Below, piece after piece: positions 1-5,347 of a stretch of DNA of 5,347 nucleotides (positions are counted from its first letter, which is position 1; each line of letters opens with the position of its first letter). The notes beneath the pieces were generated by a model that saw only the letters and a list, made by a program, of their open reading frames with translations, was not told where the DNA came from and searched no databases. Location: assembly GCA_018381425.1 (NCBI GenBank), contig JAGZRY010000127.1:1-5347 (forward strand). Direction: 5' to 3'. A program made the position numbers and the translations under genes. This DNA comes from Haemophilus parainfluenzae. GTDB taxonomy: Bacteria; Pseudomonadota; Gammaproteobacteria; Enterobacterales; Pasteurellaceae.

Positions 1-241
1 AATGTTGGAGGGTAAAGCGGTTCAAAATATGAGCCACCGAGGAAATTGCTACGATAATGCGGTGATTGAAAGCTTTTTTGCAATATTAAAATCAGAGTGC
101 TTTTACTCTCGGAGTTATCATTCAATTGCTGAATTACAGGCTGAAATTGAAGAATATTTAGTGTATTACAACCAAAAACGAATTAAACTTGGTTTAAAAG
201 GATTGAACCCAGTGCAATACCGAGCTCAATATTTAAGTTAA
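1..241 (+). CDS. IS3-family transposase (OrfB), C-terminal part, cut by window start
   Basis: This is the last part of the integrase-like DDE transposase of an IS3-family element, which cuts and joins the IS ends. The frame is open to the window edge, so the ATG at position 2 is an internal methionine and not a start. The visible motif MSHRGNCYDNAVIESFF is the conserved stretch around the third catalytic acidic residue (the Glu in AVIES) of IS3 transposases, followed by LKSE and the typical C-terminal YYNQKRIKLGLKGLNPVQYR block. The stop codon TAA is at 239-241. The terminal inverted repeat of the element begins 6 bases later, as expected for IS3 elements, in which orfB runs almost to the right end. 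Subgroup IS150-like is likely from the motif but is an inference. The two upstream catalytic Asp residues are outside the window. Confidence 0.93.
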   Translation, partial: MLEGKAVQNMSHRGNCYDNAVIESFFAILKSECFYSRSYHSIAELQAEIEEYLVYYNQKRIKLGLKGLNPVQYRAQYLS

Positions 242-321: not shown

Positions 322-632
<311 letters not shown>

Positions 633-653
633 ACAATACAATAAAAATGAACT

Positions 654-685
654 AACACCCTAAAATGATTTTAGGGTGTTTTTTT
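654..685 (+). terminator. Rho-independent terminator behind the murA remnant
   Basis: The stem AACACCCTAAA (654-664) pairs perfectly with TTTAGGGTGTT (670-680) around ATGAT, followed by a T-run to 685. It lies 21 bases after the murA stop codon and was probably the native murA terminator. It now shields the microcin promoter region from read-through from the left. Confidence 0.88.
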
Positions 686-736
686 ATATCCATTTTATAT
701 ACTGGTAGGATGAGATATGTTTATTCATACATACTC

Positions 737-765
737 TTGTTAATCACACAAATTCATGATAAAAA
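737..765 (+). promoter_or_regulatory. Candidate promoter of the microcin operon
   Basis: TTGTTA (737-742) and TAAAAA (760-765) are spaced by 17 bases and could serve as -35 and -10 boxes. The -10 is a poor match, so this is only the best of several weak choices in an AT-rich region. It is favoured because the Fur box at 758-776 would cover the -10, which is the usual repression geometry. The start codon is about 90 bases downstream. Confidence 0.35.
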
Positions 766-776
766 TTATCATTATC
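758..776 (+). promoter_or_regulatory. Fur box (iron-responsive operator)
   Basis: The sequence GATAAAAATTATCATTATC matches the 19-bp Fur consensus GATAATGATAATCATTATC at 16 of 19 positions. Fur with ferrous iron would block transcription here and release it when iron is scarce. The site lies 78 bases upstream of the microcin start codon and downstream of the murA terminator, so the four-gene operon is its natural target. Iron control is known for colicin V and other class II microcins, so site and context support each other. Confidence 0.75.
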
Positions 777-804
777 AAATGATTTGTTTGATAAAAACGC
801 TTAA

Positions 805-819
805 ATCCTAATTTAGGAT
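805..819. repeat. Short perfect palindrome in the microcin leader region
   Basis: ATCCTAA (805-811) and TTAGGAT (813-819) are exact reverse complements around one central T. It lies between the Fur box and the ribosome binding site, so it could be an operator or a small hairpin in the 5' untranslated region. No known regulator is recognised from it. Confidence 0.4.
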
Positions 820-853
820 ATTTAAATCATCTAACTTTAATGAGGTGTAGTTT

Positions 854-1192
854 ATGAAAGAGCTAAAAGATTGCTGTTTAAATTATGTTTCTGGAGGAGA
901 TTATTATGGCAGTAGCAAGTGTTGCCCCATTTGCGATCCTGAGGAATATGAAAGAGAAATGGCAGAAAAAGCAAGACTTCAAAGAGGAGCACTCACCGCA
1001 GGATCTATTGTTGGAGGAGGAGTAGCTAGTATGGCAGGTCTTGGTCCATGGGGTTCAAGAATTGTTGCTGGGGCTACAGGTATGGCAGCAGCAGAAGTTG
1101 CAGGAATTATCTATGATAATCCAAGTGCTGCCGAACACCCTGATTATAATAGCCCTACAGGTAATATCATAAACAATAAACTTGGGTATTAA
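854..1192 (+). CDS. ColV-like class II microcin precursor with double-glycine leader
   Basis: This encodes a 112-residue secreted antibacterial peptide precursor. The leader MKELKDCCLNYVSGG ends in the VSGG signal that C39-peptidase exporters recognise and cut, giving a predicted mature peptide of 97 residues starting DYYGSS. The mature part has a Cys cluster CCPIC (residues 23-27), a charged stretch rich in Glu, Arg and Lys (30-44), a long Gly/Ala-rich membrane-active segment (45-86), and a polar tail. The stretch VAGATGMAAAEVAGIIYD, then SPTGNI, resembles the equivalent part of colicin V (microcin V) as I recall it. No Ser-rich siderophore-acceptor tail is present, so it fits the unmodified class IIa group. 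The start is set by GAGG at 842-845, 8 bases before the ATG. The target species and receptor cannot be read from the sequence. The cysteine placement is unlike colicin V. Confidence 0.85.
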   Translation: MKELKDCCLNYVSGGDYYGSSKCCPICDPEEYEREMAEKARLQRGALTAGSIVGGGVASMAGLGPWGSRIVAGATGMAAAEVAGIIYDNPSAAEHPDYNSPTGNIINNKLGY

Positions 1193-1193
1193 G

Positions 1194-1367
1194 ATGAATA
1201 AAATGGTTGTAAATATTTTTAGGATCGTTTCCATACCTATTGTTTTCTATCTCACTTTCCCAATAGACAACTTATTGATTAGGATCATAGTAATCTGCTT
1301 AGTTTTTTTCTTACTTGATTTTTTTATCGAAAAACTACTGATTTACTTAATAAAAAAATTTAAATAA
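1194..1367 (+). CDS. Small membrane protein, probable microcin immunity protein
   Basis: This encodes a 57-residue very hydrophobic and basic protein with two likely membrane segments (about residues 8-24 and 28-45, the second possibly running to 53) and a Lys-rich C-terminus (KKFK). No family is recognised by sequence. Its place directly after the microcin gene, with the ATG one base past the microcin stop codon, and its size and membrane nature fit the immunity proteins of class II microcins, which protect the producer's inner membrane. The close spacing suggests translational coupling. A TTG at 1182 would give four more residues and overlap the microcin gene by 11 bases. I prefer the ATG at 1194, although no strong ribosome site precedes either. 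Immunity function is inferred from context only. Confidence 0.7.
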   Translation: MNKMVVNIFRIVSIPIVFYLTFPIDNLLIRIIVICLVFFLLDFFIEKLLIYLIKKFK

Positions 1368-1395
1368 ATAATAATCTTAAGCAGAAAAATTTCCT

Positions 1396-2649
1396 ATGTT
1401 TAGACAAGAAGTCCTAGAAAGTCGAAAATGGAAGAGTACAGCGGTACTCTTCTCTTCTATCCCCACTTGGATAGTTTTTTCAATCTCATTCATCATTATT
1501 GCTTTCTTTATCCTTTATATTTTCCTAGGAAGTTATACCCGCCGAGAAAACATTATTGGTGAAGTTATTACGCAATCTCATCCTACTATTATTTTTTCAA
1601 ATAAATCGGGACACATATCTGATAGCTATATAAAACTTAACCAAAATATAAAAAAAGGGGAGCCTTTATTTAAAATCACACTTAATAAAACAACACAAAG
1701 TGGTGATGTCAGCCAAAACTCTATCCGATCCCTGGCAAACCAAATTCAGCATTTAGACAAAGTTATCTCTAGCTTGAATAAAAATAAACTGGATACAATT
1801 CAGAGCTTAATAAAACAAAAAGAAAATCATCAAAAAATATATAGGGAAAAAGAATCCTATTTAACTGAGATCAATAGAAATATAAAGGAACACTTAGACC
1901 TTTCTTCACGTTATGAAAAACTTTTAAAAAAGGGATATTCAAGTCTAGAGGAATTGACGTTGCAAAAATCTCGTTATTTACAGCAAAAGTCCCAATATAG
2001 TGACGTTCAAGCTGAACTTATTCAGGTTGAATCGACTATTCTAAATTTAGAAAATGAAATAGAAAGCAAGCGTATTGATTTTGATAACCAAATTTTACGC
2101 TATGAAATTCAACAAAGCGATCTGAAAATTCGTCTAATGGATTATGAACTATCTTCTGAATTAATTGTAAACTCTCCTATTGATGGAAAAATTGAATCCA
2201 TCAGTGTAACAGAAGGGCAAACCGTTAAAGAAAATGATGTTCTTGCTCAAATCCTTCCAGAAAATAAAGGAAAATATCAAATTGTTTTCTGGATCCCTAA
2301 TAGCGCAATATCTTTTATAAAGCAGGATGATGAAGTTAATATTCGTTATGAAGCCTTTCCCTTTGAAAAATTCGGTCAGTTTAAAGGGAAAATCCAGGCA
2401 ATTTCTACTCTACCGGTTTCACAACAAGAACTTAGTTTTTATAAGAATTTTCCTCAATTTACTGACCAAATAATTCCACTATATAAAGCTATTGTAGAAA
2501 TTGAAGAACAATCTATTAATCACAATAATAGAACGCTACACCTAGTAAATGGCATGAAAGCAGAAGCGACATTGTTTCTAGAAAAACGCAAATTATATGA
2601 ATGGATGTTATTTCCTGCGTATCAACTTACTAAAAATATGGAGCCTTGA
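1396..2649 (+). CDS. Microcin secretion membrane-fusion (adaptor) protein, CvaA/HlyD type
   Basis: This 417-residue periplasmic adaptor of a type I secretion system would link the ABC exporter in the inner membrane to a TolC-type outer-membrane channel. It has a short cytoplasmic N-terminus (FRQEVLESRKWKS), one membrane helix at about 23-45 followed by the family's conserved GSYTRRE motif, a long coiled-coil hairpin at about 105-250, and a lipoyl/barrel-sandwich half motif ELIVNSPIDGKI near 255-266. A beta-barrel domain and hydrophobic C-terminal part follow. Length is close to CvaA (about 413 residues). An in-frame stop at 1378-1380 limits the start, and the ATG at 1396 is the first available, though its ribosome site is weak. 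It begins 28 bases after the immunity gene, and its stop codon overlaps the exporter start. Confidence 0.92.
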   Translation: MFRQEVLESRKWKSTAVLFSSIPTWIVFSISFIIIAFFILYIFLGSYTRRENIIGEVITQSHPTIIFSNKSGHISDSYIKLNQNIKKGEPLFKITLNKTTQSGDVSQNSIRSLANQIQHLDKVISSLNKNKLDTIQSLIKQKENHQKIYREKESYLTEINRNIKEHLDLSSRYEKLLKKGYSSLEELTLQKSRYLQQKSQYSDVQAELIQVESTILNLENEIESKRIDFDNQILRYEIQQSDLKIRLMDYELSSELIVNSPIDGKIESISVTEGQTVKENDVLAQILPENKGKYQIVFWIPNSAISFIKQDDEVNIRYEAFPFEKFGQFKGKIQAISTLPVSQQELSFYKNFPQFTDQIIPLYKAIVEIEEQSINHNNRTLHLVNGMKAEATLFLEKRKLYEWMLFPAYQLTKNMEP

Positions 2650-4748
2650 TGAAATTAAGCAAGCCACTTAACTTTAACTTATTAAAAAAAATTCCTGTTA
2701 CATTACAAACAGAAACTGGGGAATGTGGTTTAGCATGTCTATCAATGATTCTTGCTTATTACGGCGGTGAGTCTAACTTATTTGATTTACGGTCTAAATA
2801 CGGTGTTTCTTCCAGAGGTACTACGCTACAAACATTATTAAATATTTCTCATGACCTTGGGTTAATTACCCGACCACTCTCATTAGAGTTAGAGGAAATT
2901 TATCAATTAAAGCTTCCTTGTATCTTACATTGGAATTTTAATCATTTTATTGTTCTAACTAAAATTACTAAGAATTATGCAATTATCCATGACCCAGCGA
3001 TGGGTAAAAGGAAAGTTTCAATAAAACAATTATCTAATTCATTTACAGGTGTTGCTTTAGAGGTATGGTCTGAAGTTAAGTTTAAAGAAAGAAAGTCAGA
3101 AAACCAAATTAGCTTATATGAAACCCTAAAATATATTTTGGGAGTTAAAGGAGAATTAATTAAGATATTTTCATTCTCTATACTAATTGAGTTAGTTGGA
3201 TTATTAATGCCGGTAGGCACACAACTTGTGATGGATCATGTAATGGTAGCAAAAGATAAATCATTACTATTGGTAATTTGCTTAGGACTTTTTTTATTCA
3301 CATTTTTCCGTTCTTCCGTTAGCATGTTAAGAGCATGGGTTTCTTTGAAAATGGATTATTTGATTAATTTTCAATGGACTGCAAGTTTCTTTTCTCATCT
3401 ATTAAAATTACCATTAGACTTCTTTGAGAAGAGGCAGGTAGGAGATATTCATTCTAGATTTTCATCTCTAAACACTATTCAACAAACTCTAACTGGAAGC
3501 ATAATCTCAAGCATAATTGATTCAATTATGATAATCAGCTTAACTATTATGATGATTCTTTATGGCGGATGGCTATTCGTACTAGTTTTAACATTTTCAT
3601 TTATTTATTTTATGCTACGAATAGTAACGTATTGGACATATAGACAAATTTCGGAAGAGCAAATTATTAGGAATGCTAAAGCCCATTCTCACTTTATGGA
3701 AACACTTTATGGGATTATTACATTAAAATCTCTTTCATTAACGAAGAAAAGACAAGAGCAATGGATGTCTTTAAATGCTGATGTATTCAATACATCAATT
3801 AAAATCACAAAATTAAATATGCTATTTTCCGGCATTCATACTTTTATTGCGACTTTAGAGCAAATACTCATTTTATGGGTTGGTGCAACCCTAGTAATAG
3901 AAAATACAATGACATTAGGTATGTATGTTGCTTTTAATTCTTACCGGGGGGCATTTTCCTCTCGTATGGCAAACTTAATTAATATTTTCTTCAATATAAG
4001 AATCTTAGCTCTACATAGAGAACGAATTGCAGACATAGCCTTAAGTGAAGCAGAAGAAGATACTTATAGTCAGACTTTGGAAAAAAATCCTCAAAATGCT
4101 GCAACAATAGAGCTTAAAAATGTCATATTTTCTTATAATCAATTTAATAAGCCAATATTGAAAAATATCAATTTAATAATTTCTGCAGGTGAAAGTGTGG
4201 CTATTACAGCTCCGTCAGGATTTGGGAAAACGACTTTACTTAAACTAATGTCAGGCTTATTAAAGCCTACATCGGGTGAAATCTACTTTGATGGTATAAA
4301 TATTAATCAAATGGGATTACCAAATTATCGTTCAAGAATTGCTATGATTTTACAAGAGGATACATTTTTTTCAGGTTCAATAATTGAAAATATTGTTAGC
4401 TTTGAAGATCAATATGACCGAGATTTTGCGATTGAATGTGCAAAATTAGCTAGTATTCACAACGAAATTATGGAAATGCCAATGAATTATGAAACCCTTT
4501 TGGGAGAACTAGGAAATAACCTTTCCGGAGGTCAACGCCAAAGGTTATTTATTGCCCGTGCACTATATAAAAAACCACAAATTTTATTTATGGATGAAGC
4601 AACTAGCCATTTAGACGAAGAAAATGAAAGAGCAATTAATGCCTCAATTTCTCAATTAAATATTACACGGATCATAGTAGCCCACAGACAATCTACTATT
4701 GACTCAGCGGATCGTCGCATTGAGTTAGATAAACTACCAACTTCTTAA
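2649..4748 (+). CDS. Peptidase-containing ABC exporter for the microcin, CvaB type
   Basis: This 699-residue inner-membrane protein should cleave the Gly-Gly leader and export the mature microcin using ATP. The N-terminal C39 peptidase domain (about 1-140) has QTETGECGLAC with Gln20 and catalytic Cys26, then His99 in FNHFIVL and Asp115 in IHDPAMG, so the catalytic set is complete. A six-helix transmembrane domain follows (about 169-440). The nucleotide-binding domain has Walker A APSGFGKTT (521-529), Q-loop Gln569, signature LSGGQ (625-629), Walker B ending in Asp649-Glu650, and H-loop His679. The first Walker A glycine is Ala. Length equals CvaB (about 698). The ATG at 2649 overlaps the adaptor stop as TGATG and has GGAG at 2640-2643. 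A TTG at 2646 is less likely. TolC must be supplied from elsewhere. Confidence 0.95.
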   Translation: MKLSKPLNFNLLKKIPVTLQTETGECGLACLSMILAYYGGESNLFDLRSKYGVSSRGTTLQTLLNISHDLGLITRPLSLELEEIYQLKLPCILHWNFNHFIVLTKITKNYAIIHDPAMGKRKVSIKQLSNSFTGVALEVWSEVKFKERKSENQISLYETLKYILGVKGELIKIFSFSILIELVGLLMPVGTQLVMDHVMVAKDKSLLLVICLGLFLFTFFRSSVSMLRAWVSLKMDYLINFQWTASFFSHLLKLPLDFFEKRQVGDIHSRFSSLNTIQQTLTGSIISSIIDSIMIISLTIMMILYGGWLFVLVLTFSFIYFMLRIVTYWTYRQISEEQIIRNAKAHSHFMETLYGIITLKSLSLTKKRQEQWMSLNADVFNTSIKITKLNMLFSGIHTFIATLEQILILWVGATLVIENTMTLGMYVAFNSYRGAFSSRMANLINIFFNIRILALHRERIADIALSEAEEDTYSQTLEKNPQNAATIELKNVIFSYNQFNKPILKNINLIISAGESVAITAPSGFGKTTLLKLMSGLLKPTSGEIYFDGININQMGLPNYRSRIAMILQEDTFFSGSIIENIVSFEDQYDRDFAIECAKLASIHNEIMEMPMNYETLLGELGNNLSGGQRQRLFIARALYKKPQILFMDEATSHLDEENERAINASISQLNITRIIVAHRQSTIDSADRRIELDKLPTS

Positions 4749-4755
4749 CATACAT

Positions 4756-4804: not shown

Positions 4805-5095
4805 TTAACGCGTAGAAAGTTGGAAAATCATCGATTCTGCTTGGCAGCTAAATTCAAATGTTGCTTTCAATTTAAAGCCATTTTCCACCGCACTTATTTC
4901 ACTGTTAATATTGCACGGTTCGCTTTCTGCCGCTCTCGCTTTTTCAGTTAAATACACTAACGCTTCTTTTGCCTGAGCTTCCGTTGCATAAACCTGTTCA
5001 AAATCAATGGTGCAATCGGAGCCATCAATGACTGTGCCGACATCAACACAGCAACACACTTTGGCTTCTTCTGCTTGGCATTTTAACGAACTCAT
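4805..5095 (-). CDS. yfcZ: YfcZ/YiiS-family protein (UPF0381, DUF406)
   Basis: This 96-residue cytoplasmic protein belongs to a family with no established biochemical role. Recognisable features are the Cys-rich start VCCCVDVGTVIDGSDC (residues 13-28), the helix EALVYLTEKARAAESEPCNI (44-63), and the C-terminal block FEFSCQAESMIFQLSTR (80-96), which together match E. coli YfcZ and its Haemophilus relatives from memory. The seven cysteines suggest metal or redox chemistry, which is not shown. AAGGAG sits five bases before the ATG (plus-strand 5101-5106). It is convergent with the microcin operon and shares its terminator. One DNA uptake core lies inside the gene, which marks it as resident Pasteurellaceae DNA rather than part of the microcin import. 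Confidence 0.85.
   Translation of the reverse strand: MSSLKCQAEEAKVCCCVDVGTVIDGSDCTIDFEQVYATEAQAKEALVYLTEKARAAESEPCNINSEISAVENGFKLKATFEFSCQAESMIFQLSTR
4887..4895 (-). other. DNA uptake signal core, Haemophilus type
   Basis: The minus strand reads AAGTGCGGT, the exact 9-base core of the Haemophilus-type uptake sequence that favours import of DNA during natural transformation. It lies inside the yfcZ-like gene, where it encodes part of the ISAVE stretch. Confidence 0.8.
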
Positions 5096-5132
5096 ATTCT
5101 CTCCTTTATAAAATCAGTTGAAACTTTCAATT

Positions 5133-5160
5133 ATTTTAGCATTATTAAAATACAATACAA
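5133..5160 (-). promoter_or_regulatory. Probable promoter of the yfcZ-like gene
   Basis: On the minus strand TTGTAT (5160-5155) and TAAAAT (5138-5133) are spaced by 16 bases, with TGC directly before the -10 giving an extended -10 element. It lies 38 bases upstream of the start codon. The right-hand IS begins only 15 bases upstream of the -35, so the promoter itself is intact. Confidence 0.55.
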
Positions 5161-5200: not shown

Positions 5201-5219
5201 CCTAATTTGAGGTGCAGAT
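5178..5219 (+). repeat. Inverted repeat that can mask the orfA ribosome site
   Basis: ATCTGCACC (5178-5186) and GGTGCAGAT (5211-5219) are exact reverse complements separated by 24 bases. The second arm overlaps the GAGG ribosome site (5209-5212) and ends one base before the orfA ATG. A transcript entering from outside the IS would contain both arms and could fold to hide the ribosome site. Such read-through protection is known in several IS families. Confidence 0.5.
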
Positions 5220-5220
5220 T

Positions 5221-5347
5221 ATGTCTTACTCTTATCAATTTCGTTTAGAAATTATCAAACTCGTCACCGAACAGGATTATGGTATCCGTGAGGTGGCTAA
5301 ACTTCATAAAATTTCCCACGCTCTCGTCATTTATTGGCTAAAAGCAT
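5221..5347 (+). CDS. IS3-family transposase OrfA, N-terminal part, cut by window end
   Basis: The frame opens MSYSYQFRLEIIKLVTEQDY and continues with a helix-turn-helix (GIREVAKLHKISHALVIYWL), the DNA-binding domain typical of IS3/IS911 OrfA proteins, which bind the terminal repeats. The 42 visible codons have no stop. GAGG at 5209-5212 lies 8 bases before the ATG. The full transposase would normally arise by -1 frameshifting into orfB, which is outside the window. Confidence 0.88.
   Translation, partial: MSYSYQFRLEIIKLVTEQDYGIREVAKLHKISHALVIYWLKA

Follow-up and report, generated by a model that had tools for sequence, protein, structure and literature searches.

A predicted class II microcin operon of Haemophilus parainfluenzae and a group of predicted Pasteurellaceae microcins that join a constant CPxC head to exchanged cores

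Described class II microcins and the operon of the window

The verified class II microcins number ten, mostly from E. coli, according to the main text of a survey that also reports microcin matches in 1.5% of the sampled Pasteurellaceae species (PMC9746304); a later report concerns Acinetobacter (PMC10333792). As described in PMC10233263, their leaders have 15-18 residues and a GG or GA end, iron-regulated production and uptake through iron receptors are common, and in the studied members uptake is decided at the C-terminus. Here we report a predicted microcin gene of Haemophilus parainfluenzae, encoded at positions 854-1192 of a 5,347-nucleotide stretch of DNA (contig JAGZRY010000127.1; the whole stretch analysed is referred to as the window), and the group of Pasteurellaceae peptides to which it belongs. 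Several described systems are close to it. Microcin V (MccV; colicin V, class IIa) has, like the window, a 15-residue leader, export by a peptidase-containing ABC transporter (PCAT) with a membrane fusion protein, and a link to iron. As described in PMC12190408, mature MccV begins at residue 16 and its C-terminal 32 residues are the receptor-binding part, which binds Cir. While MccV binds its receptor with this C-terminal part, the window peptide carries a CPxC head between leader and core. The class IIb (siderophore) microcins have PCAT export and the iron link in common with the window, but no siderophore-attachment or modification gene is found among the window genes, and the C-terminus of the precursor, PTGNIINNKLGY, is not Ser/Gly-rich. 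Haemocin of Haemophilus influenzae type b is a bacteriocin known from the Pasteurellaceae.

The microcin gene and the genes around it that bear on its function are:

758-776, strand not assigned: Fur-box-like site, 78-96 bases upstream of the microcin start codon
854-1192, + strand: microcin precursor open reading frame (ORF), 112 aa, stop codon at 1190-1192
854-898, + strand: double-glycine leader MKELKDCCLNYVSGG, 15 residues, carrying the CC of the group (ORF translation and group comparison)
899-1189, + strand: predicted mature microcin, 97 residues, assuming cleavage after GG
920-934, + strand: CCPIC, of which the group conserves CPxC (residues 24-27); Cys23 looks private
998-1165, + strand: Gly/Ala-rich core and YDNP..HPDY..PTG tail (sub-threshold MccV match; core relatives)
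1194-1367, + strand: candidate immunity protein, 57 aa, strongly hydrophobic (by position and a 19-residue Kyte-Doolittle maximum of 2.9)
1396-2649, + strand: membrane fusion protein, HlyD type (HlyD_3, E 4e-15, above cut-off)
2649-4748, + strand: PCAT (Peptidase_C39, PF03412, E 6.8e-38; ABC_membrane; ABC_tran)

A preliminary description, based on the letters of the DNA, had proposed a class II microcin in Pasteurellaceae-type DNA with a VSGG leader, a 97-residue mature peptide and cysteines just past the cleavage site. The ORF and its translation bear out the leader, the length and three mature cysteines, at precursor positions 23, 24 and 27 (mature 8, 9 and 12), with none elsewhere in the mature peptide; two more cysteines, overlooked by that description, lie in the leader itself at positions 7 and 8. 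The 15-residue leader ending in VSGG is of the class II type, and the computed mass of the mature peptide (10,026 Da; 14% Gly, 14% Ala) falls at the upper edge of the class II range of about 5-10 kDa. The class assignment is supported also by the operon, as the microcin gene is the first in the standard set of candidate immunity gene, membrane fusion protein and exporter with a C39 peptidase. The Cys, His and Asp of the C39 domain align with those of PCAT1 (4ry2, E 2.7e-92), which we take to be catalytic there. A catalytic triad is described for CvaB in PMC10233263. Immunity proteins of class II microcins are usually small and bound to the membrane; the candidate immunity protein matched no family in Pfam or NCBIfam. 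No Rfam match was obtained in the window at gathering scores, and a plasmid search in near mode gave no match. Structure prediction of the microcin reached a mean pLDDT of 45.

The CPxC head and its relatives

Searching with the microcin sequence returned three near-identical relatives. One named locus, from Aggregatibacter kilianii PN_528 (L001), has the same operon between murA and a DUF406 gene, with interrupted exporter genes. Distant relatives in 140 Pasteurellaceae genomes carry the leader CCLHHVSGG or CCLHHISGG and CPxC just after it, and a profile search yielded 33 protein relatives, the source-named ones from Mannheimia, Ursidibacter, Actinobacillus, Rodentibacter and Bibersteinia. 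Every source-named relative belongs to the Pasteurellaceae: the lineage was looked up for Ursidibacter, Bibersteinia and Aggregatibacter, and we take Mannheimia, Actinobacillus and Rodentibacter to be members as well. A leader of the CC type is present in 26 of the 33 relatives and served to select those in which CPxC was counted; in all 26, CPxC begins at mature residue 8-11 and the mature peptide has two cysteines in total. Kept in this many relatives, and with the gene lying within an exporter operon, the pattern of CC leader and CPxC is beyond chance. Among the other seven, five are without that N-terminus. P0030 shows CSEC behind a disrupted leader, and in P0033 CEEC follows a GG leader that is intact but lacks CC. 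We define the CPxC-head group by a leader CCL....GG, CPxC from mature residue 8-11 and a cysteine-free core. The window peptide falls within it (CPxC from mature residue 9), without the leader HH seen in most members.

The A2 profile at E up to 1 matched in 26 of the 140 genomes, with leader and CPxC in five (G001, G032, G068, G124, G136), CEEC in G117 and a YCCEEC fragment in G016. Two of the other 19, G047 and G048, were inspected and proved to be Gly-zipper lipoprotein-like loci, and weak matches of the 140-genome search in G022 and G036 were taken for chance. A sample of 394 genomes of the wider order, covering part of the Pasteurellaceae genomes of the first search, matched at E up to 0.01 only in G001, G136, G124 and, marginally, G306 (E 0.0084; a 47-aa frame with a stop inside the match). 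A match on a viral contig, L003, was rejected as a relative, being a phage protein with a short common AEKARLQR stretch.

The heads and cores of the group were then compared in pairs, and 14 of the 378 pairs had heads at least 75% identical and yet unrelated cores. Excluded from this count were P0002, P0003, P0029, P0031 and P0032, which have no N-terminus; P0009, P0010 and P0033, the same proteins as G068, G124 and G117; P0030, with no parsable head; and P0001, P0021, P0024 and P0028, which are near-duplicate, truncated or fused. By these comparisons, core and tail are swapped between members against a constant background of leader and CPxC head, and together the members make up a predicted Pasteurellaceae microcin group that joins one type of head to interchangeable cores. 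In P0024 the microcin is in frame with a stretch that by eye resembles a membrane fusion protein, apparently a deletion fusion.

The preliminary description regarded the cysteine cluster as unusual and attached importance to an unpaired third cysteine, for metal binding, dimer formation or a modification. Given the 26 CC-leader relatives with CPxC the cluster is not unique. The third cysteine is Tyr in the nearest alleles: the Cys23 codon, TGT in the window, is TAT in A. kilianii, and Tyr is found also in P0001, as read from this one representative of a 59-member cluster. The conserved motif is C24-P25-x-C27 only, Cys23 looks private to the window allele, and a three-cysteine mechanism was rejected since Cys23 is not common to the relatives.

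The resemblance to colicin V that the same description had suggested survived as a hint. PF17508 (MccV), the sole Pfam match of the window protein, was matched at E 0.02 with 15.9 bits against a cut-off of 27, so that the curated threshold does not place the protein in the Microcin V family. The match spans residues 49-104 and profile positions 15-69 of 104 and thus ends before the C-terminal receptor-binding part of colicin V. NCBIfam gave no match for the window microcin. Among 28 group members five have an MccV match at E up to 0.1, the best being 0.02, three match Gly-zipper_Omp and four DUF6861 (both at about 2e-5), and their NCBIfam matches are mostly to glycine-zipper lipoproteins; the 140 Pasteurellaceae genomes yielded no PF17508 match over cut-off. 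P0009, the member from Actinobacillus minor NM305, is named '17 kDa surface antigen' at its source and has a Gly-zipper Pfam domain; it is likely a misannotated microcin.

A likely iron link and possible roles of the head

The Fur-box-like site at 758-776 has 2 mismatches in 19 positions on the - strand and 3 on the + strand against a Fur consensus, with an expectation of 0.00 in shuffled sequences. For comparison we used the loci around transporters resembling that of the window, which occur in 15 of the 140 genomes at E up to 1e-100 (in G097 with only 32% identity, and with several copies interrupted). In 8 of the 11 such loci examined, 12 peptides with a GG leader and no CPxC head were picked, by hand among the leader-like ORFs, others being left out. 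Sites with at most 4 mismatches within 300 bases upstream were found for 5 of 8 headed genes (two of these five, the window and A. kilianii copies, are nearly identical to each other, and one is the G117 gene with CEEC), 1 of the 12 head-less genes and 0 of 188 background ORFs, mechanically taken at 120 aa or longer. The contrast of headed and head-less genes has a one-sided p of 0.018 per gene and 0.06 per locus. In three further head-less genes of G032 the best sites have 7, 5 and 6 mismatches. The iron link envisaged earlier is thereby likely, and the microcin is likely iron-regulated.

We consider it somewhat probable (about 0.6) that the gene encodes a class II (IIa-like) microcin made under iron starvation, in which the constant CPxC head serves for entry or folding and killing falls to the exchanged Gly-rich core. 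Fur would repress the promoter, as its site suggests, and low iron would release expression. The C39 domain would then cut after GG, and the transporter, the membrane fusion protein and a TolC together would carry the 97-residue peptide out of the cell, where C24 and C27 would likely form the CPxC disulfide, Cys23 probably being incidental. Entry into related Pasteurellaceae would probably use an iron- or haem-regulated outer-membrane receptor, which the tail would bind in the manner of MccV, with the constant head aiding translocation or stability. Finally, the inner membrane would be perturbed by the Gly-zipper-like core, and the small hydrophobic protein of 1194-1367 would protect the producer. 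Operon, leader, group, CPxC constancy, head/core exchange and Fur-like site come from direct analysis, and the activity we infer throughout. The role of the head is the weakest step, because precedent places uptake at the C-terminus.

The main rival, although we hold it unlikely, is metal binding by the CPxC head: zinc or iron would be bound by four cysteines, supplied by a pair of heads or by one head and the leader CC within the precursor, in the form of a zinc-hook-like dimer or of a clasp that bridges the cleavage site. Zinc knuckles and the Rad50 zinc hook have CPxC as their motif, leader CC and CPxC co-occur in most of the relatives, and the top PDB match of the A2 profile is a consensus zinc finger (E 0.0011, profile positions 22-44), though this is one weak match that we take as motif only. 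The mature peptide, however, offers a single CxxC and no other conserved ligand, P0033/G117 retains a CxxC (CEEC) without the leader CC, and the window is without the leader HH of most members. With about the same low likelihood, the head could serve export or processing through recognition by the ABC transporter and do nothing in the target cell, as it adjoins the cleavage site and is inherited with the leader. Yet the loci of the same PCAT subfamily hold the 12 head-less GG-leader peptides, which makes a general need of the head for export unlikely, and in the G032 cluster one CPEC microcin stands beside three head-less bacteriocin-like peptides (one with a leader ending in GS, not GG), an argument that assumes export of each by that transporter.

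A bolder variant, which we regard as a little less likely still, makes the CPxC head an N-terminal Trojan-horse module that carries a redox-active disulfide or else iron, haem or another metal for which Pasteurellaceae have to scavenge, one constant key for interchangeable warheads, with the group also being the effector of the proximity-dependent inhibition by Bibersteinia trehalosi. That the peptide is an ordinary MccV-family microcin and its cysteine cluster lineage noise would fit the sub-threshold MccV matches of five members, but these stay below the Pfam cut-off, as do all in the 140 genomes, and CPxC persists in every CC-leader relative while the cores differ; this already disfavoured reading is improbable. 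Least probable of all is a relic or assembly chimera, as might be suspected from murA being cut at 513, from the murA remnant and IS3-type ends beside the operon and from the interrupted exporter genes of A. kilianii L001, since all four window genes are open, the right junction and flank match G021/G020 (96-97% over 4805-5160), and A. kilianii, too, has the operon between murA and DUF406, with a remnant there in G016.

Literature, locus history and neighbouring observations

The preliminary description had held that such a microcin may be undescribed. Among the matches listed from the openly licensed literature there was no paper on the CPxC-head group, no description of the group was seen in PMC9746304, and 'Pasteurell' is absent from the main texts of PMC10233263 and PMC11494933; Pasteurellaceae microcin matches as such, however, were already reported in general terms in the survey cited above. 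The group may also bear on an inhibition that is already described. Many strains of B. trehalosi inhibit Mannheimia haemolytica, for which a chromosomal product that acts at short range and depends on a transporter was postulated, and the chromosomal gene was still being sought in 2016 (PMC4956465). P0023 is a B. trehalosi member of the CPxC-head group, and its gene is a candidate for the one behind this proximity-dependent inhibition; through this member and the need for a transporter, the group has a possible parallel in Microcin PDI (MccPDI) and the B. trehalosi system. The group offers concrete candidate genes for the B. trehalosi/M. haemolytica short-range inhibition, and a constant N-terminal head with exchanged cores would be a natural set of combinations for telling entry and killing apart.

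The surroundings of the operon comprise the following features:

492-632, with the murA 3′ remnant at 513-632, + strand: the last ~40 codons; the upstream part is replaced at 513, where relatedness to the A. kilianii locus starts
628-4754, strand not assigned: segment between murA and the DUF406 gene, absent at that site from the nearest relatives (G021, G020: murA directly, then DUF406)
654-680, + strand: terminator-like hairpin near the left end of this segment (mean of 0.1 in shuffles)
4805-5095, - strand: DUF406-family gene, right flank (PF04175, E 3.5e-35)

Because murA is directly followed by DUF406 in G021 and G020, an insertion is the simplest account of the segment 628-4754. Identity between window and A. 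kilianii is 97-99% across the operon genes but falls to 89% in the murA remnant (117 bases) and to 82% in DUF406, while window positions 4805-5160 are 97% and 96% identical to G021 and G020, and G016 has exporter remnants at the murA/DUF406 site. A cassette swapped between neighbouring species by recombination appears likeliest from these comparisons. Within it the microcin gene is the least conserved between window and A. kilianii (97.1% vs 98.3-99.4% for the other operon genes). As murA is normally essential and only a remnant is present here, another copy or an assembly junction is likely.

Several minor observations concern the same region. At about 6130-6300 of L049, the murA/DUF406 site of G016, a leader-like MKELKNQCLHGIFGG with a YCCEEC head is a broken relic. 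Window positions 2-241 hold the C-terminal fragment of an IS3-type transposase and 5212-5346 the beginning of a second transposase frame, each truncated where the window ends, and an inverted repeat around cgcgcgtctcctgacgcgtg (328-350 and 439-462), between the IS3-type end and the murA remnant, is MITE-like by eye.

Other loci contain JmjC/cupin genes: a relative of ribosomal-protein hydroxylases at 8931-10091 (-) of L051 (PF08007, E 6.2e-28), and copies recognised by eye at 8840-10009 (-) of L079 and 9999-11168 (-) of L081. Relatives of the enzyme are found in Mannheimia, Actinobacillus, Avibacterium and Haemophilus. These genes adjoin, in three genomes of which two are close to one another, leader-bearing peptides with the common tail SGSDYGDGCNYQ or SGSNYDCGDGTDYQG, which are possibly hydroxylated microcins.
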